IMG/VR virus record: IMGVR_UViG_3300034071_000719
Location: 1 to 64,000 of that record
Reading direction: 5' to 3' (one strand)
Length of the DNA: 64,000 nucleotides
Origin: a virus
This document shows positions 773-37,752 of the stretch, piece after piece. The first letter of the stretch is position 1. Each line of letters starts with the position of its first letter. The notes below the pieces were generated by a model. That model was not told where the DNA came from. It ran no database searches and saw nothing but the letters and a program-made list of their open reading frames with translations. A program made the position numbers and the translations under genes.

Positions 773-779
773 ACGTTAT

Positions 780-981: not shown

Positions 982-999
982 TTGTTATGTGTATTTAAC
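982..999 (-). promoter_or_regulatory. Putative late promoter for the H1-like gene
   Basis: Minus-strand sequence GTTAAATACACATAACAA reading from 999 down to 982. It matches the motif before baseplate genes on the other strand (TAAATACACTATAACA) and ends its TAAATA core 27 bases before the ATG, with an AAGGAG ribosome site in between. Confidence 0.6.
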
Positions 1000-6111: not shown

Positions 6112-6160
6112 ATCTGCCAATCCCCTGTAAATGTATTTAGTTATAGGCGACTGGCAGATA
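6111..6160. repeat. 9-bp inverted repeat around promoter and start of the GIY-YIG gene
   Basis: TATCTGCCA at 6111-6119 and TGGCAGATA at 6152-6160 are perfect inverted copies, 32 bases apart. Between them lie the late-promoter motif and the GGGG ribosome site; one arm touches the ATG. It could be an operator or an RNA stem that hides the start region. Confidence 0.35.
6124..6141 (-). promoter_or_regulatory. Putative late promoter for the GIY-YIG/gp47/gp46 genes
   Basis: Minus-strand ACTAAATACATTTACAGG, reading from 6141 to 6124, matches the TAAATACAnnTATAACA-type motif. The core ends 23 bases before the ATG at 6111, the same geometry as at the other sites. Confidence 0.5.
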
Positions 6161-7068: not shown

Positions 7069-7193
7069 AGTTTTTGGTTCCTTTTAATTAGTATAACATA
7101 ATAGTATTGCACTATACAACCTATTTATGCGGTTAATCTTTAACTGCTACTATTTCTCCGGCAATAAATACACTATAACATAGAGGTTTTATT
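7069..7193. promoter_or_regulatory. Divergent promoter region between gp55 and the baseplate operon
   Basis: This 125-base gap separates the minus-strand recombination/sigma block from the plus-strand baseplate block. On the plus strand AATAAATACACTATAACA (7163-7180) lies 24 bases (core to ATG) before the first baseplate gene, followed by AGAGG. On the minus strand CATAAATA (7122-7129) is a possible late promoter for gp55, and TTGTAT-N18-TATACT a weaker possible early promoter, so gp55 may be expressed at more than one stage. Confidence 0.5.
7163..7180 (+). promoter_or_regulatory. Putative late promoter for baseplate operon
   Basis: AATAAATACACTATAACA. It differs by one base from the site before gp6 (14278-14295), and the core is a 7/8 match to the T4 late promoter TATAAATA. 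The ATG at 7194 follows 24 bases after the core, with AGAGG as ribosome site. Confidence 0.65.
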
Positions 7194-8345
7194 ATGGCAG
7201 TAGTATCACCAGATTTTAATGCAACAACTAGCTGGAGTGGTGGCGGGTATGACCCTAACGCACCAGTTGACACCAATGGCGGCTATGATCCAACAACAGG
7301 ATATGCCGGCAATAGCAATACCATTGGCGGCCAAGGCGCAGTTACTAATAATGTAGGAACTATGCCAGATTACAATGCGGTGCAAGCAGGCGGCTACGAC
7401 CCTAATCAATCTGCAGATAGTTATTATACTGCTGGTGGATACGATCCAACCGCACCATCACCCGCGGCCTCCGATAGTGTTGCAATTCGATTAGCTAGCA
7501 CCGGCGGCCTTTCTGCAGGAGGTGGTGTAGGTGGCCCTCGCCAAGCAACATCAACTGGGTTTCAAAGTGCTGCAGGAGGAGATGTATCTGCATCTGGAGA
7601 TTGGCGAGTACGCATCGCATTATCAAATTCGAGTAAGATATTTTACAAAGATACAACTAATTCATTGATGAAACCATTGAGTGAAACAAATGGCGTAATA
7701 TTTCCGTATACACCAACAGTTAATATCACTCATCAAGCCATGTATAATGCAACTCAACTTACACATAGTAACTATGCAATGCAATTCTATCAAGGAAGTG
7801 AAGTGAGTGATATTACTATAACTGGCGAATTTACAGTGCAAGATGCCAATGAAGGTAGATACTTATTGGCGGCAATATACTTTTTCCGTGCCGCAACTAA
7901 GATGTTTTTTGGGCAAGATTCGGCTACAGGGGCTGGCGCAGGTAATCCACCACCACTTGTATATTTAAATGGGTATGGTGAACATTATTTCCCTCAAGTT
8001 CCTTGTGTGATATCTTCGTTTAATCATATATTACCAAATGAAGTAGATTACCTCGAAATACCAATAAATGAAACAACTCAATCTACTATTACAACAAATC
8101 ACGGTAGTGTTCAGGGTATGGTATCTGGAGTTGATTATCCTAGTATGTTAAGTAGCAGTGGAGTTACAGGGCAAACTACTCAATCAACCTCTACAGTATC
8201 AACAACAACTACTAAAACTACACGCTTACCAACAACTAGTACAATAAGTATTACACTTCGTCCAGTGTACAGTCGTAAGAGTTTACACGAAAAATTCAAT
8301 CTTGGCGATTTTGCAGCTGGCAAATTAGTTGGAGGATTTATCTAA
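7194..8345 (+). CDS. Baseplate/tail-tube-proximal structural protein (gp48/gp54-like role possible)
   Basis: A 383-residue protein. The first 90 residues are low-complexity with four GGYDP repeats (17-21, 29-33, 66-70, 81-85). The central part (about 155-310) is a conserved phage domain with FPYTPTVNITHQ, ITGEFTVQDANEGRYLLAAI and FFRAATKMFFGQ. The C terminus ends SRKSLHEKFNLGDFAAGKLVGGFI, typical of proteins at the baseplate/tail-tube junction. Position immediately before gp53 supports a baseplate role, possibly tube cap or initiator. The exact T4 counterpart is uncertain. First gene of the operon, directly after a late-promoter motif. Confidence 0.65.
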   Translation: MAVVSPDFNATTSWSGGGYDPNAPVDTNGGYDPTTGYAGNSNTIGGQGAVTNNVGTMPDYNAVQAGGYDPNQSADSYYTAGGYDPTAPSPAASDSVAIRLASTGGLSAGGGVGGPRQATSTGFQSAAGGDVSASGDWRVRIALSNSSKIFYKDTTNSLMKPLSETNGVIFPYTPTVNITHQAMYNATQLTHSNYAMQFYQGSEVSDITITGEFTVQDANEGRYLLAAIYFFRAATKMFFGQDSATGAGAGNPPPLVYLNGYGEHYFPQVPCVISSFNHILPNEVDYLEIPINETTQSTITTNHGSVQGMVSGVDYPSMLSSSGVTGQTTQSTSTVSTTTTKTTRLPTTSTISITLRPVYSRKSLHEKFNLGDFAAGKLVGGFI

Positions 8346-8650
8346 TGTCAACAGTACAATATAGCAAAACTAGTCCGTACTTCGGTACAACTATGTTTGG
8401 TAATTTTTTAGACATTGCCGTAGATAGACAACTACCTAAAGATCCCAGTGATGTATTATACAGTATCGATGCAGTATATTCAACTCGCCCTGATTTACTT
8501 GCAAATGACTTATATAGTGATAGTAGTTTATGGTGGGTGTTTGCAGTGCGCAACCCGAACGTAATCCAAGATCCAATATTTGATTTTACTACAGGTACTG
8601 TTATCTACATTCCTAAAAAAACAACTATTATTAACGCATTAGGGTTATAA
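8345..8650 (+). CDS. 53: gp53, baseplate wedge subunit
   Basis: A 101-residue protein with the gp53 signature: TRPDLLANDLYSDSSLWWVFAVRNPN, then DPIFDFTTGTVIYIP. In T4, gp53 helps join wedges into the hexagonal baseplate. T4 gp53 is about twice as long; this short form keeps the conserved core. Its ATG overlaps the stop of the preceding gene (TAATG), so the two are probably coupled. Confidence 0.85.
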   Translation: MSTVQYSKTSPYFGTTMFGNFLDIAVDRQLPKDPSDVLYSIDAVYSTRPDLLANDLYSDSSLWWVFAVRNPNVIQDPIFDFTTGTVIYIPKKTTIINALGL

Positions 8651-8653
8651 TAA

Positions 8654-11746: not shown

Positions 11747-11757
11747 GAAAGTAATCA

Positions 11758-13869
11758 ATGGCAATAGATCGTAGAATTGGTACCAAAGTTGATAAATCAC
11801 TGCGCAGAGAAGATGCGCAGGCTATTCGAGTGGATCCATTTCCATACATCGGCATTGTAAAAAATAATTTAGATCCGACTAGGTGTGGTAGATTACAAGT
11901 ATGGATTCCGGAAACCGGTGGCGACCCCGATAGTCCACAAAATTGGCGTACAGTAAGCTACGCAAGCCCGTTTATGGGTACTACAAACTTAAAGACATCT
12001 ACTGCAACACGTAGTCCAAAAAACTCATTTGATCAAACTCCGCATACATATGGTATGTGGATGGTTCCCCCGGATATCGGCGTTGAAGTAATTGTATTGT
12101 TTATAGCAGGAGACCCTCTAAAAGGATATTGGTTAGCTTGTGTTAACTCAGCAATAAACAGACACATGTTACCCGGTTTAGCTAGTTCTACCCACATCGA
12201 TTCCTCGTCTGCAAGTGCAGATGTTAAGAAAGCTATTACTCCGGGATTTCAATATCCTGTGTCGGAATTTAATATTAACGACCCAAACGTAGATCGTACT
12301 AGATTTGCAACACAGTCTAAACCGATACACGAAGAACAATTTCGTCGACTAGTAGTACAAGGGCTAGATAGAGATAATACTCGCGGCACTATTACAAGTA
12401 GTAGCCAACGCGAAAGTCCGAGTAATGTATTTGGTATTAGTACCCCGGGCCGTCCGTATAAAAATGACCCAGCCGACGATCCAAATTTTGCAGCTAAAGT
12501 TGCTGCTGGCACGTTGACAGAGGATGATTATGCAGTAACTACTCGCAGAGGTGGCCACACATTTGTTATGGATGATGGTAGTGTTGCAGGAGTTGACCAA
12601 TTAATTAGATTACGTACTGCAAATGGCCATCAAATAATCATGCACGATAGCGATAATACAATGTATATTGCAAATGCAGAAGGCAAAGTGTGGCTTGAAT
12701 TGGGACCGGAGGGCAGACTTGACATTTTTGCAGCAGGTGGATTTAATCTCAGAACACAGGGTTCTATCGAGATGCATGCTGATAAAAATATTACTATAAA
12801 CGCTGGCGGCAAGTTTAGTGTACGTGCCGAAAATGCAATGCAATTTGATGCGGCAAAATTCAATGTACTTACGGGCGGCGGCGGGATAAATTTACAAACC
12901 ACCGGAAAATTTGACGTTAAAACTGGCGGAAATTTTAACGTAGATACAGCCGGCCAAATATCATTGAAGGCTGGTTCCAAAATAATCGAAGATGCAGGCA
13001 GTTTATCAATGTTAACAGATAAAGGAGTTGATGTCACTGCACTTAAAATGATTCCGCTAAATTCACATCCTGACACATTAGCAGATCCTGACACTGGGTT
13101 ATATAAAAATATCGCTGGCAAAATTAGTTCTATTGTATCAATTGCACCAGGACACGAACCATTTTATATGCGCAACCAATCGCCCCCTGGTGAGCCAGAA
13201 ACTGCTAAAATTATGCCGCGACAATCCTATTCTGGAAATAACGATGCAACTAAAGATGGCGGCAGTGGAGTTACTAATCAAGTAACCGATGCCGATATTA
13301 GAAACGTAAAACTAGCAACAGACACAATTGGTACATTAACTAAAGAAGAGACCACAGCATTATTGGCACAACTTGCTAAAAGTGAGAGCGGTGGATTTGA
13401 TCCTAAGAAATTTCCAGACCAATATCATGTAATAAATGGGCTAGGGTTTGCTGGAAAATATCAATTTGGTACAGGAGCACTACAAGATATTGGGTATATT
13501 AAAAAAGGCTATTCGCCAAATGATAACTCGGTTTTAACTAACCCCAATGCCTGGACAGGTAAAGGTGGCATTCACAATATCCAAGAATATTATAAAGCAC
13601 AAGATACACAAGAAACGATGGCGTTGGAATATCAACAACTAAGCTACACTAGATTAGTATCTAATGGTGTACTTACTAAAGATGATACACCGGGCGAAGT
13701 TGGTGGAATAATGCAAGTTGCCTGGTTTGGTGTAGGTAATGCTCAAAAGTGGAGAGCAAAGGAAATTCCCGATAATTACCAAGGCAATCCGTACCGCGAG
13801 TACTATAATAGAGGCAAGTATGCAGTTACCCAAATGGCGCCCAAAGTTGCAGAGATACAAGCAGGATAA
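11758..13869 (+). CDS. 5: gp5, baseplate hub and cell-puncturing protein with C-terminal lysozyme
   Basis: A 703-residue protein. Residues 25-150 form the OB-fold domain (PYIGIVKNNLDPTRCGRLQVW, MWMVPPDIGVEVIVLF). Residues 255-440 are VgrG/gp5-type beta-helix repeats (GHTFVMDD, HQIIMHDS, GKVWLELGPEG, then many G-G-x-F/I repeats). Residues 525-695 form a lysozyme or lytic transglycosylase-like domain with Glu543 in AKSESGGFDP and GFAGKYQFGTGAL. In T4 gp5 the lysozyme lies between the OB-fold and the helix; here it follows the helix. The protein should form the membrane-piercing spike and locally cut peptidoglycan. Confidence 0.85.
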   Translation: MAIDRRIGTKVDKSLRREDAQAIRVDPFPYIGIVKNNLDPTRCGRLQVWIPETGGDPDSPQNWRTVSYASPFMGTTNLKTSTATRSPKNSFDQTPHTYGMWMVPPDIGVEVIVLFIAGDPLKGYWLACVNSAINRHMLPGLASSTHIDSSSASADVKKAITPGFQYPVSEFNINDPNVDRTRFATQSKPIHEEQFRRLVVQGLDRDNTRGTITSSSQRESPSNVFGISTPGRPYKNDPADDPNFAAKVAAGTLTEDDYAVTTRRGGHTFVMDDGSVAGVDQLIRLRTANGHQIIMHDSDNTMYIANAEGKVWLELGPEGRLDIFAAGGFNLRTQGSIEMHADKNITINAGGKFSVRAENAMQFDAAKFNVLTGGGGINLQTTGKFDVKTGGNFNVDTAGQISLKAGSKIIEDAGSLSMLTDKGVDVTALKMIPLNSHPDTLADPDTGLYKNIAGKISSIVSIAPGHEPFYMRNQSPPGEPETAKIMPRQSYSGNNDATKDGGSGVTNQVTDADIRNVKLATDTIGTLTKEETTALLAQLAKSESGGFDPKKFPDQYHVINGLGFAGKYQFGTGALQDIGYIKKGYSPNDNSVLTNPNAWTGKGGIHNIQEYYKAQDTQETMALEYQQLSYTRLVSNGVLTKDDTPGEVGGIMQVAWFGVGNAQKWRAKEIPDNYQGNPYREYYNRGKYAVTQMAPKVAEIQAG

Positions 13870-13877
13870 ATATTAAT

Positions 13878-14255
13878 ATGGCTAACATGTATAGAGGATT
13901 CAGTACCATTGGAAGATCGAGAAAGTTTCGATTGACAGACGCCGCACTGGTGAAACAAGATTTAATTAATCACTTTAACATACGTAAAGGTGAGAAGTTA
14001 ATGAATCCAAATTTTGGCACTATTATCTGGAATGTGTTATATGACCCATTGACAGAAGACCTTAAAGCCATTATAATAGCTGATGTAAATCAAATTGTTA
14101 GCTACGACCCACGAATTAGTGTTGATAGCGTAGTAATAACCGAGTACGAACAAGGGCTACAATTAGCCTTAACTGTGCGTTATTTGCAAACAAATCAAAC
14201 TAGCGCAATGAATCTACAATTCAATAATCAAACTAAATCACTTACTGCCGTTTAA
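13878..14255 (+). CDS. 25: gp25, baseplate wedge subunit
   Basis: A 125-residue protein matching the gp25-like baseplate family: GRSRKFRLTDAALVKQDLINHFNIRKGEKLMNPNFGTIIWNVLYDPLT, with the C-terminal beta strands following. gp25 is a sheath-initiating wedge component conserved from T4 to type VI secretion (TssE). It lies directly between gp5 and gp6 as in many T4-like phages. The ATG is 9 bases after the gp5 stop with no clear ribosome site, so it is probably translated by coupling. Confidence 0.9.
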   Translation: MANMYRGFSTIGRSRKFRLTDAALVKQDLINHFNIRKGEKLMNPNFGTIIWNVLYDPLTEDLKAIIIADVNQIVSYDPRISVDSVVITEYEQGLQLALTVRYLQTNQTSAMNLQFNNQTKSLTAV

Positions 14256-14277
14256 TTAAATACGTACTTTTTCCTTA

Positions 14278-14295
14278 AATAAATACATTATAACA
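14278..14295 (+). promoter_or_regulatory. Putative late promoter for gp6
   Basis: AATAAATACATTATAACA, 17 of 18 bases identical to the site at 7163-7180. The core ends 21 bases before the gp6 ATG, and a GGGA ribosome site lies between. Confidence 0.65.
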
Positions 14296-14305
14296 GGGAA
14301 TTAGT

Positions 14306-17300: not shown

Positions 17301-17698
17301 TCTATAATCCTGCTAAGTTTAAACCAATATTTGGATCAAAAGCACCAGTATCATTGCAAGCAACATTTAAGGTTGTAAAAAATTCAGCTGTTATTGTTAG
17401 TGATAATGATATTAAGACTAGTGTAATTACTGCTATTAATAATTACTTTGATGTTACGAACTGGGACTTTGGTGAAACGTTTTACTTTAGTGAATTAAGT
17501 GCATATTTACATAGTGTACTTGCTCCAAATATTGCAAGTATAACTATTGTGCCGTCAGACGAAACAAGCCCGTTTGGTAGTTTGTTACAAATCAATGCAG
17601 AATACAATGAAATCATTACAAGTGCAGCAACAGTAGATAATATACAGGTAATTAGTGCAATTACTGCGGCACAAATCAACCAAACTGTTCTGGCTTAA
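14306..17698 (+). CDS. 6: gp6, baseplate wedge subunit
   Basis: A 1130-residue protein. The N terminus (DWTKIYQTFRNADFQSYDYETLRKSMIDYL, then ESSEFIALIDLIAFMGQSLAFRTDLNARENF) is diagnostic of gp6/gpJ-type wedge proteins. The domain around 395-440 (ETIEEIRQKAPQQYYTRDRMVTGEDYN) is the conserved gpJ-like core. gp6 forms the inner ring linking wedges in T4. It is much longer than T4 gp6 (660 residues); the extra length lies mostly in the middle and C-terminal half, which ends with a conserved VVKNSAVIVSDNDIKTSV region. Confidence 0.9.
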   Translation: MAITTRQTSLLVAEDWTKIYQTFRNADFQSYDYETLRKSMIDYLRLYYPEDFNDFTESSEFIALIDLIAFMGQSLAFRTDLNARENFIDTAQRRDSVFKLARLISYVPKRNIASSGYLKIDGISTTESVYDSNGLNLAGLVISWADSGNDNWLEQFTTILNASLTSSQVVGKPGNSQLINGITTSEYQINLVSNIIATYRYRAAIEGAQTTFEVVSPTSSGQTYIYEASPRPSQAFNILYRNDNLGNASANTGFFLYFKQGELQSIDFNFAESIPNRVHSINTNNINNTDVWLYSLDTNGQPSVAWAPVPAVGVSNVIYNKQANKNIYQVNTRAGDQIDLIFGDGSFANIPQGNYRLYYRTSNGANYKITPDEMQHIVIPVNYTSRSGRIETINITASLQYTVANASPRETIEEIRQKAPQQYYTRDRMVTGEDYNILPYTLFSNVLKVKAVNRTSSGVSRYLDVIDTTGKYSSTNIFASDGYLYRDETQNTFSFEFVTRNDIYRTIYNNITPLVTSQEMLQYFYAFYFKSPLLLPDVRWVHATTAANSSTGYFVDSLGKILQVGDTVSNNNSYIKPGAIIKFSAGSGQYFDARNIIQVGTPIKSGDKLYLYVAVDTVLADGTNAGQGKLANGTGPITVGGNVPTDAIADSVYATFNNKFSTTLVESIVAYTQAYEDFGIRYDIDLNVWVLIEPQNLNIGEFDLQYAGNTSGTQLDSSWMIYFKTVGQTYTVTYRGLNYIFESVNETNFYFDNTVKIYDPKTGITLHDQIKVLKINSNPNDSYPQALDYTWYIHKNIVDVDGYSNPNRISITFPDSNNDGIPDNPELFDLIVSPYTYPESKYVYFKATDGYDNFTNQIPVSSELIISTYATKLLIEEDKTLYQADQLFYVPLTNQYFQLAISSANVYTLNEVTGYTSKIGRQDLYFQYRHNSPNYRRIDPSPNNIIDLYMLTKQYAADYMSWIRDSSGATIEPTRPTSAVLGADFASLEKYKSVSDTIIYNPAKFKPIFGSKAPVSLQATFKVVKNSAVIVSDNDIKTSVITAINNYFDVTNWDFGETFYFSELSAYLHSVLAPNIASITIVPSDETSPFGSLLQINAEYNEIITSAATVDNIQVISAITAAQINQTVLA

Positions 17699-17711
17699 AT
17701 ACTATATAACA
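17694..17711 (+). promoter_or_regulatory. Putative late promoter for the gp7-like gene
   Basis: CTTAAATACTATATAACA overlaps the gp6 stop codon and matches the TAAATAC...TATAACA motif. The core is 18-24 bases before the two candidate ATGs of the giant gene. Confidence 0.55.
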
Positions 17712-17718
17712 CTGAGAA

Positions 17719-20700
17719 ATGACAATGGCATCTAGAAAAACCCTTAAATTTTTACCAACAATATTCCAAACAGATACGAATAGTAAATTCTTGTCGGCGA
17801 CATTAGATCAATTAATTGCCGAACCCGAATTAAAAACTATACATGGATATATAGGTAGAAAATTTGCGCCAACATATAAAAATAAAGATAGTTACTTAGT
17901 TGAAAGTTTAACTGAACGCCAAAATTATCAACTTGAACCAAGTATAGTTGCTCGTGATGACCAACAAAATATTACATTCTTTGCTAGTTATATTGACTTA
18001 TTAAATAAAATAGATTACTATGGTGGCATAACAACTGATCACAGTCGATTATTTGCTTCGGAATATTACTCATTTAATCCGCAAATTTCGTACGATAAGT
18101 TTATTAACTTTACACAATATTTCTGGTTACCAAACGGTCCTGATTCAGTTGATGTATATACCGGTAGTGTACCACTAACTGATACTATCACAGTACACAG
18201 AGATAGTACTACAAATAAATATCGATTTGAGTCCACAGGGCGCAATAACGGTACCTTAATATTAGCCCGCGGCGGAGTGTATACCTTTGAAGTTAATCAA
18301 CCCGGGCATCCATTTTGGATTCAGACTGAATTAGGAATCGACGGCCTTGTAAATTCAACACCCGGAATTAGTTCACGTGAAGTATTAGGGGTAACCAATA
18401 ACGGAGCCGATGTTGGTACGATTACGTTCTTAGTGCCACAATCGACTGCACAAGATAATTTTAATTCGATGAATTTAATCTACAATGTAGATTATGCTAT
18501 ACCGTTGGCATATTCAAAAATTCAACATCAATTATTATCTAATTTTATACAAGCATTTCCACAATATGCTCCTATTGCAGCAAATATTGATGGTAAAACT
18601 TTAATCTTTATTGATCAAGATCAATTAACTAATTATGGCGAAAACGCTTGGATCACACCCGGCTTATTTGACAACCATGGTATAGAAGTAGACGAGTTTG
18701 ATGCAGGATATGTAGTAACTAACAATCAACGTTACGGTGTATGGAAAATAATGTTGATTGAAAATGGCGGTGACACAATTATTAGATTAGTGCCAGTGAT
18801 AGATGTACCGCTGAATAATAAGGTATATATTCAATCTGGGATTACTAATGTTAACCGAGAATACTTTAAGGATTATGATGAATTTTTCCATCAAGTCCCT
18901 GTAATTTCAAGTGTACAAAATACAATATATTATCAAGATGGGTCATCATCTGACCTATACGGCCAATTCTCTTTAATTAATCCTGCAAGTTGGATCATTG
19001 ATGTAGATCAAGAAATTATTGGAAAGTCTGAATACATTAGTCCTAACGGAATTGAATTCACAACAGGATTAAAAATTAAATTCGGCACAGATGTCTACCC
19101 AGCAACATATCAAAACAATAGTTATTATGTAGAGGGAGTAGGTGATGCAATTCGACTAGTTGACATTACTGCATTGATTACTCCGGAACCATTCAATGAT
19201 GAATTAGCAATAAATTATCCTGGGCAAGTATTTCCTGACTATATTACGATTAATCGTGCTAGCAAAGATTTAAATGCATGGTCACGTAGTAATAGATGGT
19301 TCCATAGAGATGTAATTGAAAAGACTGCAGAATATAATTCAACAACACCAGCGTATGATCAATTGCAACGTGCGCAACGTCCTATTGTACAATTTAACGC
19401 CGATTATCAATTATTTAATAACGGACGTATTGGTAAAAAAGCAATTGATATATTGGATACATTAACCACAGATGCATTTAGTGATGTTGAAGGAACCTAT
19501 CAAACTATATTTCGTGGCGCAACTATTATAAATGGAACTCGTGTTATATTTGCTAACGACAATGATCCGTTAGTCCGTAATAACATTTATGAAATTAATT
19601 TAGTATATATAACGGTAGATGAATTTCAACGACCAGTAGGCGATCCACAAATTACATTGACTCTAGCCGCAGATGGTATAGCAGAACAATATGATTCGAC
19701 TGTAATCACAACAGGGCAGTATAAAGGAACATCTTGGTGGTTTAACGGCATTAACTGGGTTGAAAGCCAAACAAAAACAAGCAATCAGCAAGACCCATTG
19801 TTTGATATATTTGATTCGGCTGATACTAGTTTATCAGAATATCCAGCAAGTACCTTTGCTGGTACTAAGCTATTTGGCTATAAACGAAATTCAACAGGGC
19901 GCACTGACCCAGTATTGCAATTTCCACTTAGTTATAGAAACTTCGGAACACAAGGCGATATCGAATTTTCTAATTACTATAATATAGATACGTTTAGTTA
20001 TACAGCAAACCCAATTACTCAAATTTCTATCGGGTCATTGCATAAAATTGCAGACCGTTATAATTCTGTATCGTCTACTATTTGGTCAACAGTTATTGAA
20101 GAAAGTAAACAATACCAATTAATATCATATATCTATTTGGGCTCGACCACAATATTTGCAATTGATGTTACACCTGCGGTTGAATCTACTATTCCGTATC
20201 TGCGTGTATTTCAAAATAATGTATTGTTAACCCCTACTCAATGGGTATTTAATTCTGTAACAAAAACTATTAGTTTAGTGGCTACCCCTGCAATCGACGA
20301 TAAAATCGATATCTTAGTATACAGTAAAGAAGTAAGTAAACTTGGGCACTATCAGATTCCGTTAAATTTAGATTTAAATGCACAAAATATTGATTTAGAA
20401 TCATTGACCTTAGGCCAGATACGTAATCATGTGGTTGCGTTAAGTCACAATAGCAAAGAATTAGTTGGTAATATTCTTGGCCCTAATAATTTACGAGATA
20501 TTGAGCTTGCAACGCAAGGCGGCAACATCTTGCAACATAGCGCACCTGTTCCACATGCTGCATTATTTTTATTAAACGAAGATACTAATTTTGTTAACGC
20601 AGTTCGTTATGCACAACAAGAATATGCTAGATTTAAAAATAAATTTCTTGAATATAGCACAACATTAAATGGCATTCAACCAACTGATCCGTCTGCTAGT

Positions 20701-23700: not shown

Positions 23701-26700
23701 GATATTGATGCTACTATATTTGACCTTGCTAACTATGCAGATTTAAATAGTCTAACATATACTATGGGTAGTGGTTATACTATATGGACCGCAAAAGATT
23801 TTAAATCAGATTGGAATGTTTTTAGAATATCAGAAACAGATACTACTATTGTAGAAGTAGAAAATGCATTAGATGGCTATATAACATTTAGAACAGATGT
23901 TTATCATGGATTAGCAGCTGATAATGTAGTAATGATTCGTAATTTTGATGCAGCATTTGATGGCTTCTATGAAGTATATAGAATTGTAGATTTAAGTAGC
24001 TTTATGGTTCGTTACACAGGCGATACAACAACATTAACTAACTTTACTGGCTCTGGTATTTTGTTTACCTTAGATAGTTTACGCTTTAATTACATGGAAA
24101 CTGCTCGTGAATACTTCCCACCACATGGCTGGAAAGTTGGCGAGAAGATTTGGATTGATACTGATGCAGCAACTACAACAGGACAAGGTCAACCGTACAA
24201 TACTGGCGACAACTTATGGAAAGTATACGAGAAGACACGCCCATGGGAAATGGGCCAACGCCTAGTAAAAAATATCGGTGAATATTCTGCAGATATAGGA
24301 TATGGCCAAGCATTAAAAATGATTGATAATGCCGCGCAAACTATTTTTGTTGGTACTACTTTATATGCAACTACTGGTGCAGTAAATGTATTTGATAAAA
24401 ATACATCAAATGTATATGTTGAAACAACTACTATAGTACCAGATGGTGCAAATACATTTACATTCGGTTCGCACATTGATACAGCAGTTGATACTACAGT
24501 ATTTGATGGTATCGATTCGAGAGAAACATTAGCAGTTGCGGCACCAACAAGTTCTGGATTAGCAGGAGCAGCAAATGTTGGACTATTATACATCTATAAA
24601 GAAACTGCTGGCACTGAAAATTGGGTAAGAGGACAAGTCATCGCAGGCAATGTTAGTGCCGTTGGTGGGAAATTTGGTACAGGCTTTGCGTTTGATGAAT
24701 TAGGCCACTGGCTATATGTTGGTGCACCATACGAATCGACTCCTAAAGTTTATGTTTACGGTTTACAACGCTTTGTGACTGTGGCTACCGGAAATGTTAC
24801 TACATCTGGTTCTGTGTCAACGGTAACAGTACCGTTTACACGTGATGCAACAGTTGGGTCAACTGATGCTAATTCATTATTAGTTACAAGTGCAACACGT
24901 ACATATATTCCACGAATTGACTATACAGTAAGTGGGCAAACAATAACATTTATATCCGGTAACGTAAATGCTACATTAACAATTTCACAAGGACCATACT
25001 ACACTTTAATTGAAACTATTACTCCACCGCCCGGCACAGGTGATAACAGTGAATTTGGCTATTGTATTGATGCTAGCTTAAATGGTGCACAACTTGGAGT
25101 TGGATGCCCGGGTGATACAGTTAACGTAGCAGTATTCAGCGATGGTATAACAACCGTTGAACGTTCAATTCCTGTAGGAACTAATACTGCATCAATTACG
25201 TTAGATGGAAATGTATTACCACGTACATCATACGTTGAGAATGTTGGTGCTGGATCGGTATTTGTGTACGATCGTGTTATTGAATCATTTAATAGTACTA
25301 ACGATACAATATATACTACAGAAGAAACTATCGCTCCGGTATATAAAGTAACAGTTGATGGCATTGAAATATTTGATTATACAAAAACAGCCGCAAAAGA
25401 AATAACATTATATGTTCCAGTAGGCATTGGTAAAGTTATTAACATCGAAACTAATAAATTTACTCTATTAGAAAAACTAATTGGAATTGATTCGCTTGAT
25501 GGTACGCTAGGTGCAATTCAATCAGGCGCACGTTTTGGTTCGGCATTAACAATTTGTTCAAACAATTGCGCATTCTATATTGGCGCTCCGTATTACGACA
25601 GTGGTACAATTTATAACACTGGTGCTGTATGGAAATTCCATAATAGAGGAACACTATACGGTACTAACACAGGTTATACACATAACCCAACGTTCACACC
25701 GGGTGATACAATTCGATTAGACAACTTCCAAATTACTGTAACTGGTACTAGCTTAGATAGTTTGGTTGAAGATATTAACAATGCTAATCTATTAGGTATT
25801 ACCGCAGTTAATGAAAATGGATATTTAAGATTAAACAGTGATAAAACTGTAGCTAAAAATCGTTTACGTATCTTATCAGCAAGTGGCACCGTGTATGAAG
25901 ATGCAGGCATGGCTATATTTGCATTCATGCAGATTATTGTTAACCCTTATAAAAATGCCAATGAATATTTTGGTACTAAAGTTATATTGGCTCGCAATGC
26001 ATATATGCTAGTGATCAGTAGCGATCGCGGTACAACAAGAAAATATACTACATTTGATAACGATACTACTATACTCGATGGTGAAACTACTGGCATATAT
26101 GATAGTATAAAAGCTAGTGGAAGTGTATACACATATGAACTATACGATGACCCACGCAATGCAGTAGAGAATCCAGGACGCTACGCATTCTGTCAACAAA
26201 TTGATCCAACAGATTTAAATCCAGGTGACGGATTTGGTGCTGCGATTGATGTTATTGGCGGACATATCGTAGTAAGTGCACCAAATGATGATGCAACAAT
26301 AACCAATGGTGGTAGCATTTATCTGTTTAGTAATCCAACTGGGCAACGTGGGTGGAATTTATTACGTTACGAACAGCCAACAGTTGATATTGATTCTGTT
26401 AACAGACTTTATGTGTATAACAAACGAACTAATACTATTTTAGCTAATTTAGAATTCATTGATCCAGCTGCTGGTAAGATTTTAGGGCTAGCAGAACAAG
26501 AACTTTCATATAAAACATCATATGATCCTGCAATTTATAATAAAGGCACAAGTAGCGAAAGCAGTTCAAATACATATTGGGAAGCTACACAAGTCGGTAG
26601 AGTATGGTGGAATTTAGACCAAGTACGTTACATAGATTACGAGCAAGGATCACTAGCATATCGCAGTATTAACTGGGGTAGATTATTTCCAGGATCAATT

Positions 26701-29700
26701 GTTGAAGTATTAGAGTGGGTAGAATCGGACGTATTACCGAGCAAATATGTTTCTGCAGGTAATAATGGTACACCAAAACATGCTGACGATAGTGCGTATG
26801 TGGAAACTATATTTGTTGATCCACTTACTAATATAATTAGTACAAAATATTATTATTGGGTTAAAGATAAAACATCACTTGATGTTATTAATTCTTCAAG
26901 ATCATTGCCGATTAAAGTTATTCGAGACTTAATAGAAAATCCAAAAAATAACGGAACAGCATATACAGCTATCATTTCACCTTCTGCGGTGATACTATAT
27001 AATATTGCCGAGTATCTATCCGATGTAGATACAATATTGCATTTAGATTATGAATTAATACGAAATTCAAGCATAGTACATAGTGAATATGAATTAATAC
27101 AAAAAGGTAATAATGTAGGTATAATTCCTGTTCGAATTATAGATAAATTAATAGATAGTTTAGTAGGATATGATATAGCTAATGCGCAAGTTCCGGATAT
27201 GGGATTAAGCATTGCTGACCGATATGGTATTTCTATTAGACCTCGACAATCGATGTTTGTTGATAGACTTACTGCGGTTACTGTACTAATTGATTATGTT
27301 AATAATGTATTTACAACTGCCCAATATACTACATATAATGTGGAACATCTTCTATTAGAAGAATCGCAACCAAGCAAAAAGTTAAATGAATACGATATAT
27401 TAGTTACAACAGAAGAAGAATTACTATATGTTGATACAACCGAATTATCATCGGGTTACTTAGTATTAGTTGCGACTAATACAATGTACGAAGGTAGATG
27501 GACACTGCATCAATTAACTAGTACTAATACATGGGAAATAATTCGAAGCCAATCATACAAAACTAGTTTGTATTGGGATTACGCAGATTGGTATGCCACT
27601 GGTTACACTTCTGCTATTAAACCAGCTTATTCAGTTGCAACATTGCTTGATGCATTAAAACTGCCGTATACAGCTAATGATATTATTAAAATAACCAATA
27701 CCGGAGCAGGACAATGGGAATTAATACTTGTCAATGACGCACTTGAATTTGTTACAATTGGTAAACAACACGGAACCATACAACTTAATAAATCTAAATT
27801 AATTGATGTAACATTAGATCAACACGTTGAACTTCGAAATATTATTGTTGGATTGCAAGATGATATATTTGTTGGTACGCTTGCTGGAGAGTTTAATAAA
27901 TTATTCTTTCAATTGATAAATTATTTATTTACTGAACAAACTTATGTTGATTGGATATTTAAAACTAGTTTTATTAGCATTGTTCACAAATTACGTGGGT
28001 TAACTCAACCATCTAATTATATCAAGGACAATCAAACTTATTACCAGGATTATATAAACGAAGTTAAACCGTATTCAACTAAGATACGAGAATATTTACT
28101 TAATTACAATAGTGTTGATGAGTTTCCGGGTAGCGTGTCTGACTTTGATCTACCTGCATATTATGATCATACGCTGAAGGTATTCCGTAGTCCAAGTGGC
28201 GAGCAACTTGCTACAGATTCGTCGATGTGGCAAACAGCACCATATAATCAATGGTATGCTAATAGAACCTATGAAATCGAATCAATAGAAATTGGAAATA
28301 AAGGAGTCGGTTATGTAACTGCGCCTGTAGTTGAGATATACGGAAATGGCACCGGTGCAACTGCACACTCATTGATTAATTTTGATACAGGTGAAGTTAC
28401 TGCCGTGATAGTTGATAACCCGGGAACAGGATATAGCCAACAAGTTGTTATTCGACTAAATGGCAATGGATCAGGGGCAACGGCATACGCAAGATTACAC
28501 AATAATCAAGTGCGTAGTATTAATACTACTATGAAATTTGATAGAATTAGTTATTCTAGTGTAGTTAAAGAATGGACACCTAATACAGTATTTTTAGCGG
28601 GCGACATTGTTAGCTATAATGCAGTTGGTTACATTGTAAATGCAAACATGACTACCCCGGCTAAATTTATTGCCTCTGATTATACTGTTCATCCATCTGC
28701 AAGTTTTACTAATGCAAATGATAGAATAATGGCAAACTATGCTCCGGGTAATGACCTTCCACTGAAAAATTTATCACAGTTAATTTATGGCATCGATTAT
28801 CCAGGCGTACAAGTAACTGGACTGCCGTTTGATCAGGCTCCTGGCTTAGATTTAGGACCGTTTGATATCAACCTATTTGATCAGGTGCAATATGATATTG
28901 ATGGTCTACCAATGACAAGTGACACAGCAGTTGATTCGCTGATTCAGAGTAACTACACTGATTTAGCTCTTGGTACACGCCCAGAAGATATTAATGTTAT
29001 TGGTGGTGCGTATGTTGATACATATTCGAGTCATGCTCCAGAAGAAATGGTTCCGGGTATTGTATTTGATACATTAAATCTACAAGTATATACTAAGATT
29101 CTTGGTAATACTGTGGTACTTGGATATCGCATATTACACGATATGCTACACAATTCGACATATCTACGAATTGCAGAACATTATTCAACGGTGTTAACTG
29201 CCCCTTTAAATATTAGTGATAGTTTAATTTATGTCGAAGATGCAAGCACCTTACCTATACCGGACCCAGATGCTGGTATCCCTGGGGTAATATTTATTCA
29301 GACAGAACGAATTACGTATTATACAATTGATTTAATTAATCATACATTAGGACAATTACGTAGAGGAACAGCAGGAACCGCACCAAGATTAACTTATCAA
29401 TCTGGGGTTGCAGTAGTTGATGCAAGTAATAGACAATTAATGCCAAATATTGGTTCTAGTAATGTAACTCATGCAGTAGATCATGCATACACTATTACAT
29501 CAACTCCGCCATATGAGTTAACATTTACTGATGCAATTATACCAACGTTTGGTGATTATATTACACAAGCAAGCACTGGTGCTAATGTTACGGTAACTGC
29601 AATATCAACCTTAACTGCCGAAACCATACAAGTAAGTGCTATTTTACCAGTTTTACAAGTTGGTGACATTGTAACTCAAAGTTTGTCAGGAACAATTGCT

Positions 29701-30486
29701 CGAGTAACAAAAACAGATACGACTAGTAACTACATAACATTAGTATATACTGCCGGTCAATTTACTGTAGGATCAGGTAATATTAGTTTGAATGGAATAG
29801 ATGCCAATGCATATCCTACATCTGCAAGTATTAGGGCTGTGCCTCGTGCTACTGTTATTAAAAATAACAATATACCGTTTAGTTATGCATCTGCAAATGT
29901 TGGATTGAATAGTAATATCACAGTATCAAGTGGTAGTTACATAACTCAAAGCTCAACTGGTGCAAATGCAATAGTTCAACAATCAGTTACTGACAGTAAG
30001 TATGTTAACTTAGTATATGTAGATACAACAATATTTGAATTAGGCGCTGGCAATATTGCAATTAATGGCGGTACTGTTACAAGTATACATCCTACTACAT
30101 CGGTATATATTGCGAATATAAGTAATCAAATAAGTATCAATGGCACAATTAGTTCTGACATTGCTCCGCTTGCTATGAATTTATTAGCTGCAAGTGATTC
30201 GACTAACGAATATGTTACTGGATCAGTTGATGCCAATGGAAATATTACAGTTAAAGCAAATGTAACTTTAAAAACAGATAATGCATGGTATACACCTATA
30301 CCTGGAGTTGCACCATCAGATGGGCTGGGCTTCCAGTTTACTGATACTGCTCAGGTATTATTCTTAAAATTATGGCCAAGTGGCTATCCAGCGAGTTTTG
30401 CAATAGGTGATGAGGCGTTGGTAAATATAGTAACAGAATCGGGTATAGAAATATACGGCGAGTTTGGTGATATTGATGGAAATTAA
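17719..30486 (+). CDS. Giant gp7-like baseplate wedge protein with FG-GAP repeats (4255 aa)
   Basis: The N terminus (KFLPTIFQTDTNSKFLSATLDQL, then GYIGRKFAPTYKNKDSYLVES and RQNYQLEPS) is typical of the very large structural protein that follows gp6 in T4-like aquatic phages and occupies the gp7 position. Several integrin-type FG-GAP beta-propeller repeats are seen: about residues 2266, 2317 (FGTGFAFDELGHWLYVGAPYE), 2441, 2603 (FGSALTICSNNCAFYIGAPYY) and 2836 (FGAAIDVIGGHIVVSAPNDD). Near 3526-3595 are two G-x-GY...GxGATA repeats. T4 gp7 has 1032 residues. The ATG at 17725 has better spacing to GAG than 17719. The receptor or scaffold role of the repeats is inferred. Confidence 0.7.
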   Translation: MTMASRKTLKFLPTIFQTDTNSKFLSATLDQLIAEPELKTIHGYIGRKFAPTYKNKDSYLVESLTERQNYQLEPSIVARDDQQNITFFASYIDLLNKIDYYGGITTDHSRLFASEYYSFNPQISYDKFINFTQYFWLPNGPDSVDVYTGSVPLTDTITVHRDSTTNKYRFESTGRNNGTLILARGGVYTFEVNQPGHPFWIQTELGIDGLVNSTPGISSREVLGVTNNGADVGTITFLVPQSTAQDNFNSMNLIYNVDYAIPLAYSKIQHQLLSNFIQAFPQYAPIAANIDGKTLIFIDQDQLTNYGENAWITPGLFDNHGIEVDEFDAGYVVTNNQRYGVWKIMLIENGGDTIIRLVPVIDVPLNNKVYIQSGITNVNREYFKDYDEFFHQVPVISSVQNTIYYQDGSSSDLYGQFSLINPASWIIDVDQEIIGKSEYISPNGIEFTTGLKIKFGTDVYPATYQNNSYYVEGVGDAIRLVDITALITPEPFNDELAINYPGQVFPDYITINRASKDLNAWSRSNRWFHRDVIEKTAEYNSTTPAYDQLQRAQRPIVQFNADYQLFNNGRIGKKAIDILDTLTTDAFSDVEGTYQTIFRGATIINGTRVIFANDNDPLVRNNIYEINLVYITVDEFQRPVGDPQITLTLAADGIAEQYDSTVITTGQYKGTSWWFNGINWVESQTKTSNQQDPLFDIFDSADTSLSEYPASTFAGTKLFGYKRNSTGRTDPVLQFPLSYRNFGTQGDIEFSNYYNIDTFSYTANPITQISIGSLHKIADRYNSVSSTIWSTVIEESKQYQLISYIYLGSTTIFAIDVTPAVESTIPYLRVFQNNVLLTPTQWVFNSVTKTISLVATPAIDDKIDILVYSKEVSKLGHYQIPLNLDLNAQNIDLESLTLGQIRNHVVALSHNSKELVGNILGPNNLRDIELATQGGNILQHSAPVPHAALFLLNEDTNFVNAVRYAQQEYARFKNKFLEYSTTLNGIQPTDPSASVDLILTTINAIKSQLFPWYYSDMVPYGTLKNILNDVGYTVFDPLVRTYEITSVFNSAILSNQAILVYLNGEQLILNRDYSFNTERPAVTFADTLLLNVDDLITIVEYQNTDGCYIPETPTKLGLYPKFIPEIFLDDTYRTPINVIRGHDGSLTPAFNDYRDDFLLELEKRIYNNIKVPDTGRNQDIHEIVTGKFRNSDFVLAEATQLLSGSFLNWVGNNKLDYSTNDTFNSNDPFTWNYSRFIDRINGEALPGSWKACFQYFYDTIRPHQTPWEMLGFTSIPDWWEDEYGTAPYTGGNTLLWSDLEAGLIKGGPTAGVDSNYIRPGLSKIIPVDENGILKSPAAILTAEFDSKYAATSWAAGSQGPVEAAWRTSSEFPFAAQVALALAKPGKYFGVFLDVNSYQYNYNIGQYLTTANNHLTQTSTSFNGDTTSGTVFRGAGYLNWVADYLINLGINPATKITLLMKNYKVNLAYKMAGFSDQKYLQVLAEQSSPTSTNDSIIIPDENYEVYLYKSTPVDKLTYSAVIIEKTSNGFSVRGYDLSNPYFTIIPSIVNSNASKITVVAQSAAVFNDYQPVKLTVPYGYDFSSMQQVVDFLISYERYLQAQGFTFNDNDGQLNEVRNWKLSSKEFLFWAQQGWPNGSILVLSPVSNLITSLSSGAITDGISDSQYGTKILDQNFKLIKNNNYNVLRTPTSLKVELTNGQVIGLMTLDLVQYEHVLVFDNTTVFNDIIYKPELGNRQFRLKLIGQKTDNWDGSLTSPGFVYNSNTVQSWIQGKDYLKGVLVQYKNQYYVALQNIIASELFDFSAWKSVDADQIKTGLLPNFASNAVKAQSYYDAYGYFNDSNNVKYSHGLIGFKPRQFLDDMGLNETTQVEFYKGYITQKGTANAIDALTNAQFNNLNSAIDYYEEWAVRVGEYGAIDTNPYVEIALDEKAFSVNPALAEFVPTTDEARANGVTVFANGDLYKSTNQFDGTIASIRNDQSDYDNDIPTAGYVNIDDIDATIFDLANYADLNSLTYTMGSGYTIWTAKDFKSDWNVFRISETDTTIVEVENALDGYITFRTDVYHGLAADNVVMIRNFDAAFDGFYEVYRIVDLSSFMVRYTGDTTTLTNFTGSGILFTLDSLRFNYMETAREYFPPHGWKVGEKIWIDTDAATTTGQGQPYNTGDNLWKVYEKTRPWEMGQRLVKNIGEYSADIGYGQALKMIDNAAQTIFVGTTLYATTGAVNVFDKNTSNVYVETTTIVPDGANTFTFGSHIDTAVDTTVFDGIDSRETLAVAAPTSSGLAGAANVGLLYIYKETAGTENWVRGQVIAGNVSAVGGKFGTGFAFDELGHWLYVGAPYESTPKVYVYGLQRFVTVATGNVTTSGSVSTVTVPFTRDATVGSTDANSLLVTSATRTYIPRIDYTVSGQTITFISGNVNATLTISQGPYYTLIETITPPPGTGDNSEFGYCIDASLNGAQLGVGCPGDTVNVAVFSDGITTVERSIPVGTNTASITLDGNVLPRTSYVENVGAGSVFVYDRVIESFNSTNDTIYTTEETIAPVYKVTVDGIEIFDYTKTAAKEITLYVPVGIGKVINIETNKFTLLEKLIGIDSLDGTLGAIQSGARFGSALTICSNNCAFYIGAPYYDSGTIYNTGAVWKFHNRGTLYGTNTGYTHNPTFTPGDTIRLDNFQITVTGTSLDSLVEDINNANLLGITAVNENGYLRLNSDKTVAKNRLRILSASGTVYEDAGMAIFAFMQIIVNPYKNANEYFGTKVILARNAYMLVISSDRGTTRKYTTFDNDTTILDGETTGIYDSIKASGSVYTYELYDDPRNAVENPGRYAFCQQIDPTDLNPGDGFGAAIDVIGGHIVVSAPNDDATITNGGSIYLFSNPTGQRGWNLLRYEQPTVDIDSVNRLYVYNKRTNTILANLEFIDPAAGKILGLAEQELSYKTSYDPAIYNKGTSSESSSNTYWEATQVGRVWWNLDQVRYIDYEQGSLAYRSINWGRLFPGSIVEVLEWVESDVLPSKYVSAGNNGTPKHADDSAYVETIFVDPLTNIISTKYYYWVKDKTSLDVINSSRSLPIKVIRDLIENPKNNGTAYTAIISPSAVILYNIAEYLSDVDTILHLDYELIRNSSIVHSEYELIQKGNNVGIIPVRIIDKLIDSLVGYDIANAQVPDMGLSIADRYGISIRPRQSMFVDRLTAVTVLIDYVNNVFTTAQYTTYNVEHLLLEESQPSKKLNEYDILVTTEEELLYVDTTELSSGYLVLVATNTMYEGRWTLHQLTSTNTWEIIRSQSYKTSLYWDYADWYATGYTSAIKPAYSVATLLDALKLPYTANDIIKITNTGAGQWELILVNDALEFVTIGKQHGTIQLNKSKLIDVTLDQHVELRNIIVGLQDDIFVGTLAGEFNKLFFQLINYLFTEQTYVDWIFKTSFISIVHKLRGLTQPSNYIKDNQTYYQDYINEVKPYSTKIREYLLNYNSVDEFPGSVSDFDLPAYYDHTLKVFRSPSGEQLATDSSMWQTAPYNQWYANRTYEIESIEIGNKGVGYVTAPVVEIYGNGTGATAHSLINFDTGEVTAVIVDNPGTGYSQQVVIRLNGNGSGATAYARLHNNQVRSINTTMKFDRISYSSVVKEWTPNTVFLAGDIVSYNAVGYIVNANMTTPAKFIASDYTVHPSASFTNANDRIMANYAPGNDLPLKNLSQLIYGIDYPGVQVTGLPFDQAPGLDLGPFDINLFDQVQYDIDGLPMTSDTAVDSLIQSNYTDLALGTRPEDINVIGGAYVDTYSSHAPEEMVPGIVFDTLNLQVYTKILGNTVVLGYRILHDMLHNSTYLRIAEHYSTVLTAPLNISDSLIYVEDASTLPIPDPDAGIPGVIFIQTERITYYTIDLINHTLGQLRRGTAGTAPRLTYQSGVAVVDASNRQLMPNIGSSNVTHAVDHAYTITSTPPYELTFTDAIIPTFGDYITQASTGANVTVTAISTLTAETIQVSAILPVLQVGDIVTQSLSGTIARVTKTDTTSNYITLVYTAGQFTVGSGNISLNGIDANAYPTSASIRAVPRATVIKNNNIPFSYASANVGLNSNITVSSGSYITQSSTGANAIVQQSVTDSKYVNLVYVDTTIFELGAGNIAINGGTVTSIHPTTSVYIANISNQISINGTISSDIAPLAMNLLAASDSTNEYVTGSVDANGNITVKANVTLKTDNAWYTPIPGVAPSDGLGFQFTDTAQVLFLKLWPSGYPASFAIGDEALVNIVTESGIEIYGEFGDIDGN

Positions 30487-30530
30487 TACCACCACGAAAC
30501 AAAAAATGATTAACGTGTCCGGAGACATAA

Positions 30531-32942: not shown

Positions 32943-32943
32943 A

Positions 32944-33120
32944 ATGTATTCGGCTGCGAGAATAAATAATAATATGGATGATAAAATGCAACAATCAGTA
33001 GATAATAGTAAGCCTCAAATTGAAAAACGCCCTGATGAGCGTGGCGGAATCGATGTGCAAAGTCACATTAAAATATTCGATCCCGAAACTAATGAAATAT
33101 TTGTACAGGAGCGAGCATAA
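32944..33120 (+). CDS. Small virion-associated protein, related to the next gene
   Basis: A 58-residue protein starting at the ATG that follows the preceding stop by one base; a second in-frame ATG at 32974 is also possible. The end, HIKIFDPETNEIFVQ, closely matches the start of the next protein (FLKIFDPVTNEVFVD). It may be a partial duplication of that gene's 5' end or a small partner. The role is unknown; the location among fibre genes suggests a virion or assembly function. Its stop overlaps the next start (TAATG). Confidence 0.6.
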   Translation: MYSAARINNNMDDKMQQSVDNSKPQIEKRPDERGGIDVQSHIKIFDPETNEIFVQERA

Positions 33121-33731: not shown

Positions 33732-33744
33732 CTAGGATAATAAA

Positions 33745-35106: not shown

Positions 35107-35116
35107 TGTAGTTTTA

Positions 35117-35134
35117 GATAAATAATTATAATAA
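35117..35134 (+). promoter_or_regulatory. Putative late promoter for second fibre paralogue
   Basis: GATAAATAATTATAATAA: core GATAAATA is a 7/8 match to TATAAATA. The core ends 23 bases before the ATG at 35147, with AGG as ribosome site, the same geometry as the other sites. Confidence 0.55.
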
Positions 35135-35146
35135 TAGGTAAACATA

Positions 35147-36769: not shown

Positions 36770-36781
36770 GGAAAAACAGAA

Positions 36782-37720
36782 ATGGCATACGCAGCAGGCG
36801 ATCTAATATTACACGATCATTATAATACCTTTGCAACAGGTAACGCAGACGGTTCAGCAAACAACGCAGTGGCAAACATTAATACTGTATGGGGTACAGG
36901 TACAGGTGCAATTGGTTATGGACAAACAGCTACTACAATAACAGGTGTAACAGCTGGTGCAGTTATTACTGCGACACAATGGTCTACATTAATTGGTAGA
37001 TTAAATAGTATTCTAACACACCAAGCTGGTGCTGGATCAGGTATTACATTACCAACAGCAGGTGCAACAGTTGCATATATTGCCTCATTGCAAACTGGTG
37101 TTACTAATGCATTTAATAATAAAGCAAACTATGCAACACAAGGTGCTACAACTACTGGTGCAAACTTTGATGCAACTGTATCTAGTACAACTGGTTTAAG
37201 TAGTTATACTGTGGACCGTGTAGTAACATTTGCTAGCGCCAATGCCGCACGTTATTTTTTTAATGCGGGCGGACAATTAAATTTAAGATTAAGTACAGTT
37301 AACTCAGCAGATAGCGGATCAGAAAACAGTTTTGCTAGACTAGTAACTGGTTTAGGCGGAGTTGCTTTTAAAAATACAGCAAATGGCGGACGCACAGGTA
37401 CTGGTCTTACATTAAACACAAACAATACAGCACTTGGTTATAGAACTAACGTACTTAACACACCGGCTACTATAGTGCAAGTTACTGATACCACAGCAAG
37501 TTACACAGCAAGCACTGGGTATTTACAAGTGTATACAAGCAGTAGTGACACTACTAACGGCTCAAACGGATTAAACGTAGTTTTCCGTACTGTTTATTCT
37601 ATTACTGATAAAACATGGAATGATACATTAAGTCTTACTTACAGAATGGCAGTTGATATTGTATATCCAGAAACTTCAAACTTACCAGCAAGTCCGTGGG
37701 GCACGCCAACTGTTTCATAA
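36782..37720 (+). CDS. Conserved virion structural protein
   Basis: A 312-residue protein starting AAGDLILHDHYNTFATG, with GTGTGAIGYGQ near residue 40 and a C-terminal beta-rich half (GLNVVFRTVYSITDKTWNDTLSLTYRMAVDIVYPETSNL). It resembles proteins found at the end of fibre modules in T4-like aquatic phages. No enzymatic motif, signal peptide or membrane segment is seen. It is the last gene before the terminator-promoter junction at 37721-37799, so it probably closes the structural operon. Confidence 0.6.
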   Translation: MAYAAGDLILHDHYNTFATGNADGSANNAVANINTVWGTGTGAIGYGQTATTITGVTAGAVITATQWSTLIGRLNSILTHQAGAGSGITLPTAGATVAYIASLQTGVTNAFNNKANYATQGATTTGANFDATVSSTTGLSSYTVDRVVTFASANAARYFFNAGGQLNLRLSTVNSADSGSENSFARLVTGLGGVAFKNTANGGRTGTGLTLNTNNTALGYRTNVLNTPATIVQVTDTTASYTASTGYLQVYTSSSDTTNGSNGLNVVFRTVYSITDKTWNDTLSLTYRMAVDIVYPETSNLPASPWGTPTVS

Positions 37721-37723
37721 TAG

Positions 37724-37752
37724 TTGACAAACTGATATAAATGTAGTAAACT
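37724..37752 (+). promoter_or_regulatory. Sigma-70-type promoter (TTGACA-N17-TAAACT)
   Basis: A consensus -35 TTGACA (37724-37729), 17-base spacing and TAAACT (37747-37752). A late-promoter-like TATAAATG (37736-37743) lies within the spacer. The promoter is placed to drive the enzyme island starting at 37800. The expected start near 37759 falls in the left arm of the terminator hairpin. Confidence 0.5.

Follow-up and report, generated by a model that had tools for sequence, protein, structure and literature searches.

What reads the AT-rich motif that recurs ahead of genes in virus record IMGVR_UViG_3300034071_000719, and what does the tail downstream of its TAAATA core contribute? The record is a 79,576-bp fragment with a G+C content of ~37%; the stretch analysed here, referred to as the window, is its first 64 kb, and counts given for the record cover all 79.6 kb. 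The original prediction listed six copies of the motif, described them as late promoters of the phage T4 type with a fixed geometry, read by a gp55 encoded nearby, and proposed that a second half, TATAACA, reflects a different requirement of this gp55. All six strings are present at their reported places:

7163..7180, + strand: leadered promoter AATAAATACACTATAACA, before the virion-protein gene at 7194.
14278..14295, + strand: leadered promoter AATAAATACATTATAACA, before the gp6 baseplate gene at 14306.
17694..17711, + strand: leadered promoter CTTAAATACTATATAACA, before the gene at 17719 encoding 4255 amino acids (aa); overlaps the gp6 3' end.
35117..35134, + strand: leadered promoter GATAAATAATTATAATAA, before the tail-fibre-like gene at 35147.
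982..999, − strand: leadered promoter GTTAAATACACATAACAA, before the histone H1-like (Hc1) open reading frame (ORF) 780-965.
6124..6141, − strand: late promoter ACTAAATACATTTACAGG, before the homing-endonuclease-like gene 5449-6120; the TATA tail is absent.

Very probably, the motif serves a T4-type gp55 system of a jumbo phage lineage as its late promoter, its tail is the melted and initiating segment, and it occurs in leadered and leaderless arrangements. The sequence, position and enrichment of the motif, its avoidance in genes, the homology of gp55 and the conservation of its pockets carry this reading; from these we infer gp55 binding, start sites, late timing and leaderless translation. 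In the proposed mechanism, host RNA polymerase with phage gp55 would recognize (A)TAAATA, which spans −12 to −6 (T4 numbering) and resembles a −10 element; a −35 is absent. The enzyme would melt the AT-rich DNA to about +2 and start RNA ~5–7 nucleotides (nt) past TAAATA, with a TATA/TATAACA tail favored for opening easily and offering T-A start steps. Leadered promoters, at least 15 nt before the ATG, would leave room for a Shine-Dalgarno (SD) site; at leaderless promoters, with TAAATA ~5 nt before the ATG, the message would have the A of the ATG as its first base. The promoter class itself is already known, as noted for phage CBB; three points appear new, concerning how genes avoid the core, which bases make up the start region, and the leaderless arrangement.

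The TAAATA cores of the six sites lie at 7165, 14280, 17696 and 35119 (+ strand) and at 992-997 and 6134-6139 (− strand), and end 17–26 nt upstream of an ATG, which at the 6139 site requires an in-frame ATG as the start codon and not the TTG at 6120. The fixed geometry applies to a subset only, the complete tail being exact at three sites. Across the record, TAAATA lies 8–36 nt before an ORF start in 12 of 87 cases against 1.4 expected (binomial P ~2e-8), an upstream share unmatched by any other A4T2 hexamer, the next by count being AATTAA with 11/213. The exact motif TAAATACNNTATAACA occurs three times in the entire record, each time at a gene start, before baseplate/tail genes, and its reversed control not at all. 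When three mismatches are permitted, the long motif is found 28 times in the record versus a shuffled expectation of 31.8, which is not above chance, so its significance rests on position. Past the window end the record holds further TAAATA sites at 65861, 74631 and 77287, all on the − strand and without the tail.

The comparison was extended to a metagenomic set of 80 related loci (L005–L084) plus the window, 1.2 Mb in total; the relatives partly overlap (L014, L022, L039 and L061 are pieces of genomes G004, G006, G009 and G013) and near-identical loci were collapsed only in part. None of the other A4T2 hexamers (15 in all) is as promoter-enriched in this set as TAAATA, and ATAAATA lies upstream of genes in 159 of 277 cases. 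The 7163 promoter, including its TATA tail, is conserved before orthologs in four loci (L006, L007, L010 and L012), and nearly all metagenomic gp6 orthologs, even at ~40% protein identity, retain TAAATA upstream. A site similar to the 982..999 promoter is present in G001. At 17694 the core is absent before most orthologs of the 4255-aa gene (single ORF 17719-30486, + strand).

As to whether hits are as frequent inside genes as before them, 44 of the 47 copies of TAAATA-N3-TATA in the metagenomic set lie upstream of genes, and TAAATA is strongly avoided within genes. Depletion was measured as the observed/expected hexamer ratio in gene bodies under a maximal-order Markov expectation. In the relatives this ratio is 0.38 in the sense and 0.45 in the antisense direction, TAAATA and its complement holding the two lowest ranks; in the source record, where 2,961 hexamers were scored, none has a lower ratio than TAAATA (0.55). 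The antisense ratio is 0.15–0.21 in CBB, GAP32 and 121Q, and T4 and RB49 also deplete TAAATA in genes, chiefly antisense. No avoidance was seen in 50 kb each of the AT-rich controls phiKZ, phage K and T5 (ratios 0.98, 0.90 and 1.18), three phages that are not known to use gp55. With A at −12 the ratio is 0.06–0.20 in the window's lineage, CBB, GAP32 and 121Q, and with other bases roughly 0.07–0.8. Selection against stray sigma70 promoter boxes has been described in bacteria (PMC1939733); no report of avoidance of gp55 promoters in genes was found in the open-access literature searched, of limited coverage. In-gene avoidance of TAAATA appears to be a new, transcript-free readout of gp55 specificity (e.g., the weight of A-12) that is usable for uncultured phages. 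It also bears on the idea that the motif arises by chance in an AT-rich genome, for which the ~37% G+C content and the unexceptional three-mismatch count could be cited: enrichment over hexamers of the same composition and over distance-matched controls, together with avoidance in genes, refutes this reading, leaving it practically no probability.

The predicted reader of the motif is encoded in the window, as had been proposed:

6175..7068, − strand: gp55-type late sigma factor, 297 aa (phrog_12791, E 3.6e-78; phrog_234, E 2.1e-23).

A profile built from 45 relatives of this protein matched only T4 gp55 in the PDB (7d7c/7d7d; 7d7c_F), in an alignment that includes the sigma2 core and, near the N terminus, the NNK motif. 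The AlphaFold model (pLDDT 85) also has T4 gp55 as its top PDB match, with a weak E-value (0.15) and a probability of 0.98, and a gp55 sigma domain was found in 13 of 13 records tested. In T4 gp55, pockets receive A-12 (Y97), A-9 (N13/H95) and A-8 (T99) (PMC7892883). The aligned residues Y242, N10 and T244, paired by hand from the HMMER alignment, are invariant in the lineage, and T4 H95 is replaced by F240. The promoters are therefore taken to be of the T4 late type, given the enrichment, the in-gene avoidance and the invariant A-12 and A-8 pocket residues. In the lineage protein, an inserted region of ~150 residues, predicted with high confidence, separates the N-terminal helix from the sigma2 core; no credible structural match to it was found in the PDB. 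Most members have a Gly-rich acidic tail at the C terminus, and the T4 clamp-binding sequence is missing. The closest named phages are all jumbo phages, namely Phosso (gp55 46% identity), PA5oct, 121Q/PBECO4, CBB, GAP32 and Atu_ph07, and the gene order gp55-SbcD-SbcC is common to PA5oct and the window; the source phage is a member of a gp55-encoding jumbo lineage. No near-identical phage was present in the named phage collection searched.

The downstream tail is more variable than the core. It is complete at only three sites in the record; at 35119 it reads TATAATA and lies one base closer, at 992 it reads ATAACA, and the 6139 site is without a tail. Among 119 sites, TATA follows TAAATA at offsets 3, 4 and 5 in 24, 10 and 9 cases, where distance-matched control genes predict ~3 (3.1), 4 and 4–6, respectively; these offsets together account for 43 sites (36%), and no other offset shows an excess over the control. 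The position of TATA follows that of TAAATA more closely than that of the ATG, and the letters after TATA differ among sites (AC, TT, AA, GG, TA). TATAAC at offset 3 is found at 6/119 sites; these counts do not support TATAACA as a separate required half. Sorted by gp55 identity, TATAAC at offset 3 occurs at 3/14 sites at ≥90%, 0/14 at 70–90%, 1/62 at 60–70% and 2/29 at 45–60%. TATAACA thus scales only weakly with gp55 identity, the exact heptamer being largely confined to the source phage and its nearest relatives.

With offset 3, TATA falls on −2..+2 (T4 numbering), where the melted bubble has its downstream end; T4 late promoters are melted from −12 to +2 (PMC7892883). Start-region preferences fall into two phases: TA at −1/+1 is preferred in T4, RB49, KVP40, S-PM2, Aeh1 and PA5oct, and A at −1 and +2 in CBB, GAP32, G004 and the window's relatives. 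A at −1 is found at 38/98 sites on the T4-like side versus 174/262 on the CBB/window side (Fisher P 4e-6, kinship ignored), with KVP40 and 121Q intermediate. Start-region composition thus differs by about one base between the T4-likes and the CBB/window branch. Because T4 and CBB both infect Enterobacteria and yet differ, this points to a phage factor rather than the host polymerase. The lineage difference in phase agrees loosely with the suggestion of a different gp55.

A different requirement of this gp55, in which it or a partner protein would contact the tail as a further sequence-specific element, is unlikely. The exact TATAACA does occur three times at a single spacing, TATA is preferred at offset 3 in the clade, and TAAATA inside genes seldom has TATA at offsets 3–5 (3 cases versus 12.5 expected in the metagenomic set; 9 versus 20.5 when pooled with G004, CBB, GAP32 and 121Q), a comparison picked after the data had been seen. 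This in-gene deficit indicates that the tail probably helps promoter function. For a second element, however, TATA is present at too small a share of sites, the letters after it vary, three sites in the source record have no tail, and its position is that of the melted start region, where T4-likes show a similar A/T signal shifted by one base. The best reading of the tail is an easily melted start region, a preference rather than a separate box or strict requirement, in agreement with the "AT base pair preponderance" in the start segment of T4 late promoters (PMC2988020) and with the A/T described downstream of the motif in CBB, a motif also mentioned for GAP32 (PMC5259590).

TATAAC also resembles TATAAT, which raised the possibility of overlapping dual promoters in which the tail is a host sigma70 −10 box. 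TATAAT occurs at only 2 of the 24 sites with TATA at offset 3; no TTGACA lies at the matching distance upstream, the best match (2.27) not exceeding that at other sites (2.34) and 5 of 6 positions being reached at 0/41 sites. The gp55 gene has a putative sigma70-like promoter whose shape contrasts with that of the late promoters:

7090..7119, − strand: putative sigma70-like promoter of the gp55 gene, TTGTAT-18-TATACT, the −10 being preceded by TG (read by eye, weak).

With no −35 and TATAAT rare, the sigma70 reading was rejected as very improbable.

The list of sites in the original prediction was incomplete, as it omitted three at which TAAATA lies 4–5 nt before an ATG:

13866..13880, + strand: predicted leaderless promoter ATAAATA-N5-ATG (TAAATA at 13867), at the start of gp25 (13878-14255).
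32962..32976, + strand: predicted leaderless promoter ATAAATA-N5-ATG (TAAATA at 32963), at a 48-aa ORF (32974-33120).
770..783, − strand: predicted leaderless promoter ATAAATA-N4-ATG (TAAATA at 777-782), at a SegE-like GIY-YIG endonuclease gene (332-772).

The 48-aa ORF runs into a 203-aa gene at 33120, with identical spacing in L120 and L174; the 777-782 site is conserved in L005, L012, L018 and L045, and its gene matches PF19835. In the window's relatives the distance (d) from TAAATA to ATG is bimodal, with 13 sites at d=4, 37 at d=5, one at d=8–14 and ~180–190 at 15–35, which defines a short class (3–7 nt) and a leadered class (≥15 nt). Genome G004 shows the same gap (20 sites at d=4–7, none at 9–13), and the gap in spacing also holds when the script-assigned gene starts are replaced by a simple first-ATG rule. 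CBB, PA5oct and T4 have at most two sites each at 3–7 nt, GAP32 and four other T4-likes none, and 121Q none, or five with a simpler start rule.

A spacing of d=5 places the T4-numbered +1 on the A of the ATG. T at −1 precedes the ATG in 84% of the short class versus 41% of leadered late genes (P 2e-12) and 32% of other genes. SD cores in G004 accompany 1 of 20 short-class sites versus 36 of 51 leadered ones; in the metagenomic set an SD core lies within −18..−4 at 14 of 55 short-class sites. The short class comprises 95 genes in 34 protein families, including gp25 and gp55 (in L055 and L056) and, by the look of the sequences, terminase and tail proteins. Among 56 distinct gp25 orthologs, 40 have TAAATA 3–7 nt before the ATG; all 40 lack an SD core in −13..−4, a zero that is partly forced as the promoter itself occupies that zone. 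The informative half is for this reason the 16 remaining orthologs, of which 10 carry an SD core.

These sites could instead combine the TAA stop codon of an upstream gene with translational re-initiation, and TAA is indeed the in-frame stop of the preceding gene in 35 of 55 metagenomic cases, mostly at gp25. ATA, however, follows TAA 55 times versus 18 for the next triplet, and stops account for only 6 of the 20 sites in G004; A at −12 (30/48) and T at −1 (43/48) are preferred in the short class, CBB is without this class and T4 almost so, and orthologs free of TAAATA mostly carry an SD core. Re-initiation is accordingly held to be an improbable account. The simplest reading of the short class is that of leaderless late mRNAs with a 5' end at the A of the ATG, as predicted from the T4 spacing and T at −1. 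Leaderless mRNAs are mentioned as common among phages (PMC5312081); like those, the messages proposed here would have a 5'-terminal AUG without an SD site, and unlike them they would form a systematic class built into the gp55 late promoter, of which no description was found in the open-access literature searched. In the 354-kb G004 the leaderless type makes up about a quarter of late promoters. On balance it is likely that an uncultured jumbo lineage runs part of its late genes from gp55 promoters placed for leaderless mRNAs, without a T4-type clamp, a gene keeping either the promoter or an SD site and stray cores being purged from genes. If true, late translation in a large phage would be organized in a new way, and start codons that SD-based annotation may miss would come to light.

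In L055 (2708-2719) and L056 (2217-2228), the gp55 gene itself begins with TAAATA-N5-ATG, which suggests self-activation in these loci. In L106 (G004, ~309.6–310.4 kb) two divergent genes have start codons a few tens of bases apart, and both promoters are of the leaderless type. SegE-like orthologs occur in ~20 loci (e.g., L014, L024, L034), many without TAAATA but with ATAA[CT]TA near the start codon, which may be the upstream gene's stop codon or another signal.

Several observations weigh against a T4-type late system with leadered and leaderless arrangements. Three sites in the window (17696, 992 and 6139) lack A at −12, which is present at 7165, 14280 and 35119 and at 77% of sites in relatives. 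Gene starts were chosen by script, and the overlap of short-class sites with stop codons noted above counts on the same side. Phosso, a Sinorhizobium phage and the isolate with the closest gp55, has no match to TAAATANNNTATA or ATAAATANNNNNATG. Finally, the T4-type clamp gp45 (PF09116, PF02916) was matched only in T4 among the records searched and in none of the relatives, and coupling to replication therefore cannot be assumed. The authors of the CBB genome likewise found neither gp45 nor gp33 (PMC5259590); gp33 has been claimed for group 2 jumbo phages (PMC7824862).

T4 late promoters carry TATAAATA at −13..−6 and are read by gp55 with gp33 and the clamp gp45 (PMC2988020, PMC7892883). The promoters described here share with them the TAAATA core, A at −12, the lack of a −35, the A/T-rich melted segment just downstream, the position before late genes and the gp55 sigma2 pocket residues. 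They differ in that T at −13 is not kept (48/262 sites here versus 43/98 in T4-likes; this T, part of the full TATAAATA, is present at 12% of metagenomic-set sites versus 67% in T4), a base that also varies among T4-likes (PMC1524935). They differ further in the start region, T4's version of TATA lying one base further on; in the clamp, not found in the relatives; in a gp55 with an insertion and without a T4-like clamp-binding end; and in the additional leaderless-type class. The ATAAATA motif of CBB and GAP32 is similar in having its core before structural genes, a "concentration of A and T downstream" and a gp55-like sigma factor, with neither gp45 nor gp33 found (PMC5259590); unlike in that account, the tail was measured here against matched controls, and the leaderless-type class is absent from both phages. 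The CTAAATA of Aeh1 is a further case of lineage-specific variation around TAAATA, attributed there to a diverged gp55 (PMC1524935); in Aeh1 the variation is at −12 (C, seen again here), whereas here it concerns the start region and the spacing to the ATG.

A T-rich stretch at about −24 or −23 to −19 (T4 numbering) lies upstream of leadered late promoters in the metagenomic set, with T at 0.56–0.81 per position versus 0.33–0.42 in control genes in the set before de-duplication. It is also visible in the de-duplicated profile, is weaker or shifted in G004, CBB and 121Q, and is possibly an upstream contact or bent DNA replacing the missing clamp system. A near-palindromic, back-to-back pair of leadered promoters is found at L119/L122 (G001/G002); divergent late-promoter pairs also occur in T4.

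Around these promoters the window contains the following groups of genes:

Gene neighbourhood: gp55-type late sigma factor (6175-7068, − strand), SbcCD subunits and homing-endonuclease-like genes.
Tail/baseplate cluster, + strand: virion protein, baseplate wedge and hub subunits, gp25, gp6, the 4255-aa gene and tail-fibre-like proteins.

The region 37800-57441 (+ strand) holds more than 20 closely packed genes, most of those checked having no PHROG function apart from one radical SAM protein and one weak aminotransferase match. It is probably not a late-promoter region, because few of its genes have TAAATA near the start. The ORF at 780-965 (− strand) encodes a 61-aa histone H1-like protein (Hc1, PF07432) with its own late promoter. 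In 121Q (NC_025447, 120641-131286, − strand), TAAATATAGTATA (once TAAATATGATATA) occurs ten times in a row, spaced ~0.8–1.3 kb, a pattern resembling one late promoter per gene of a tandem series.

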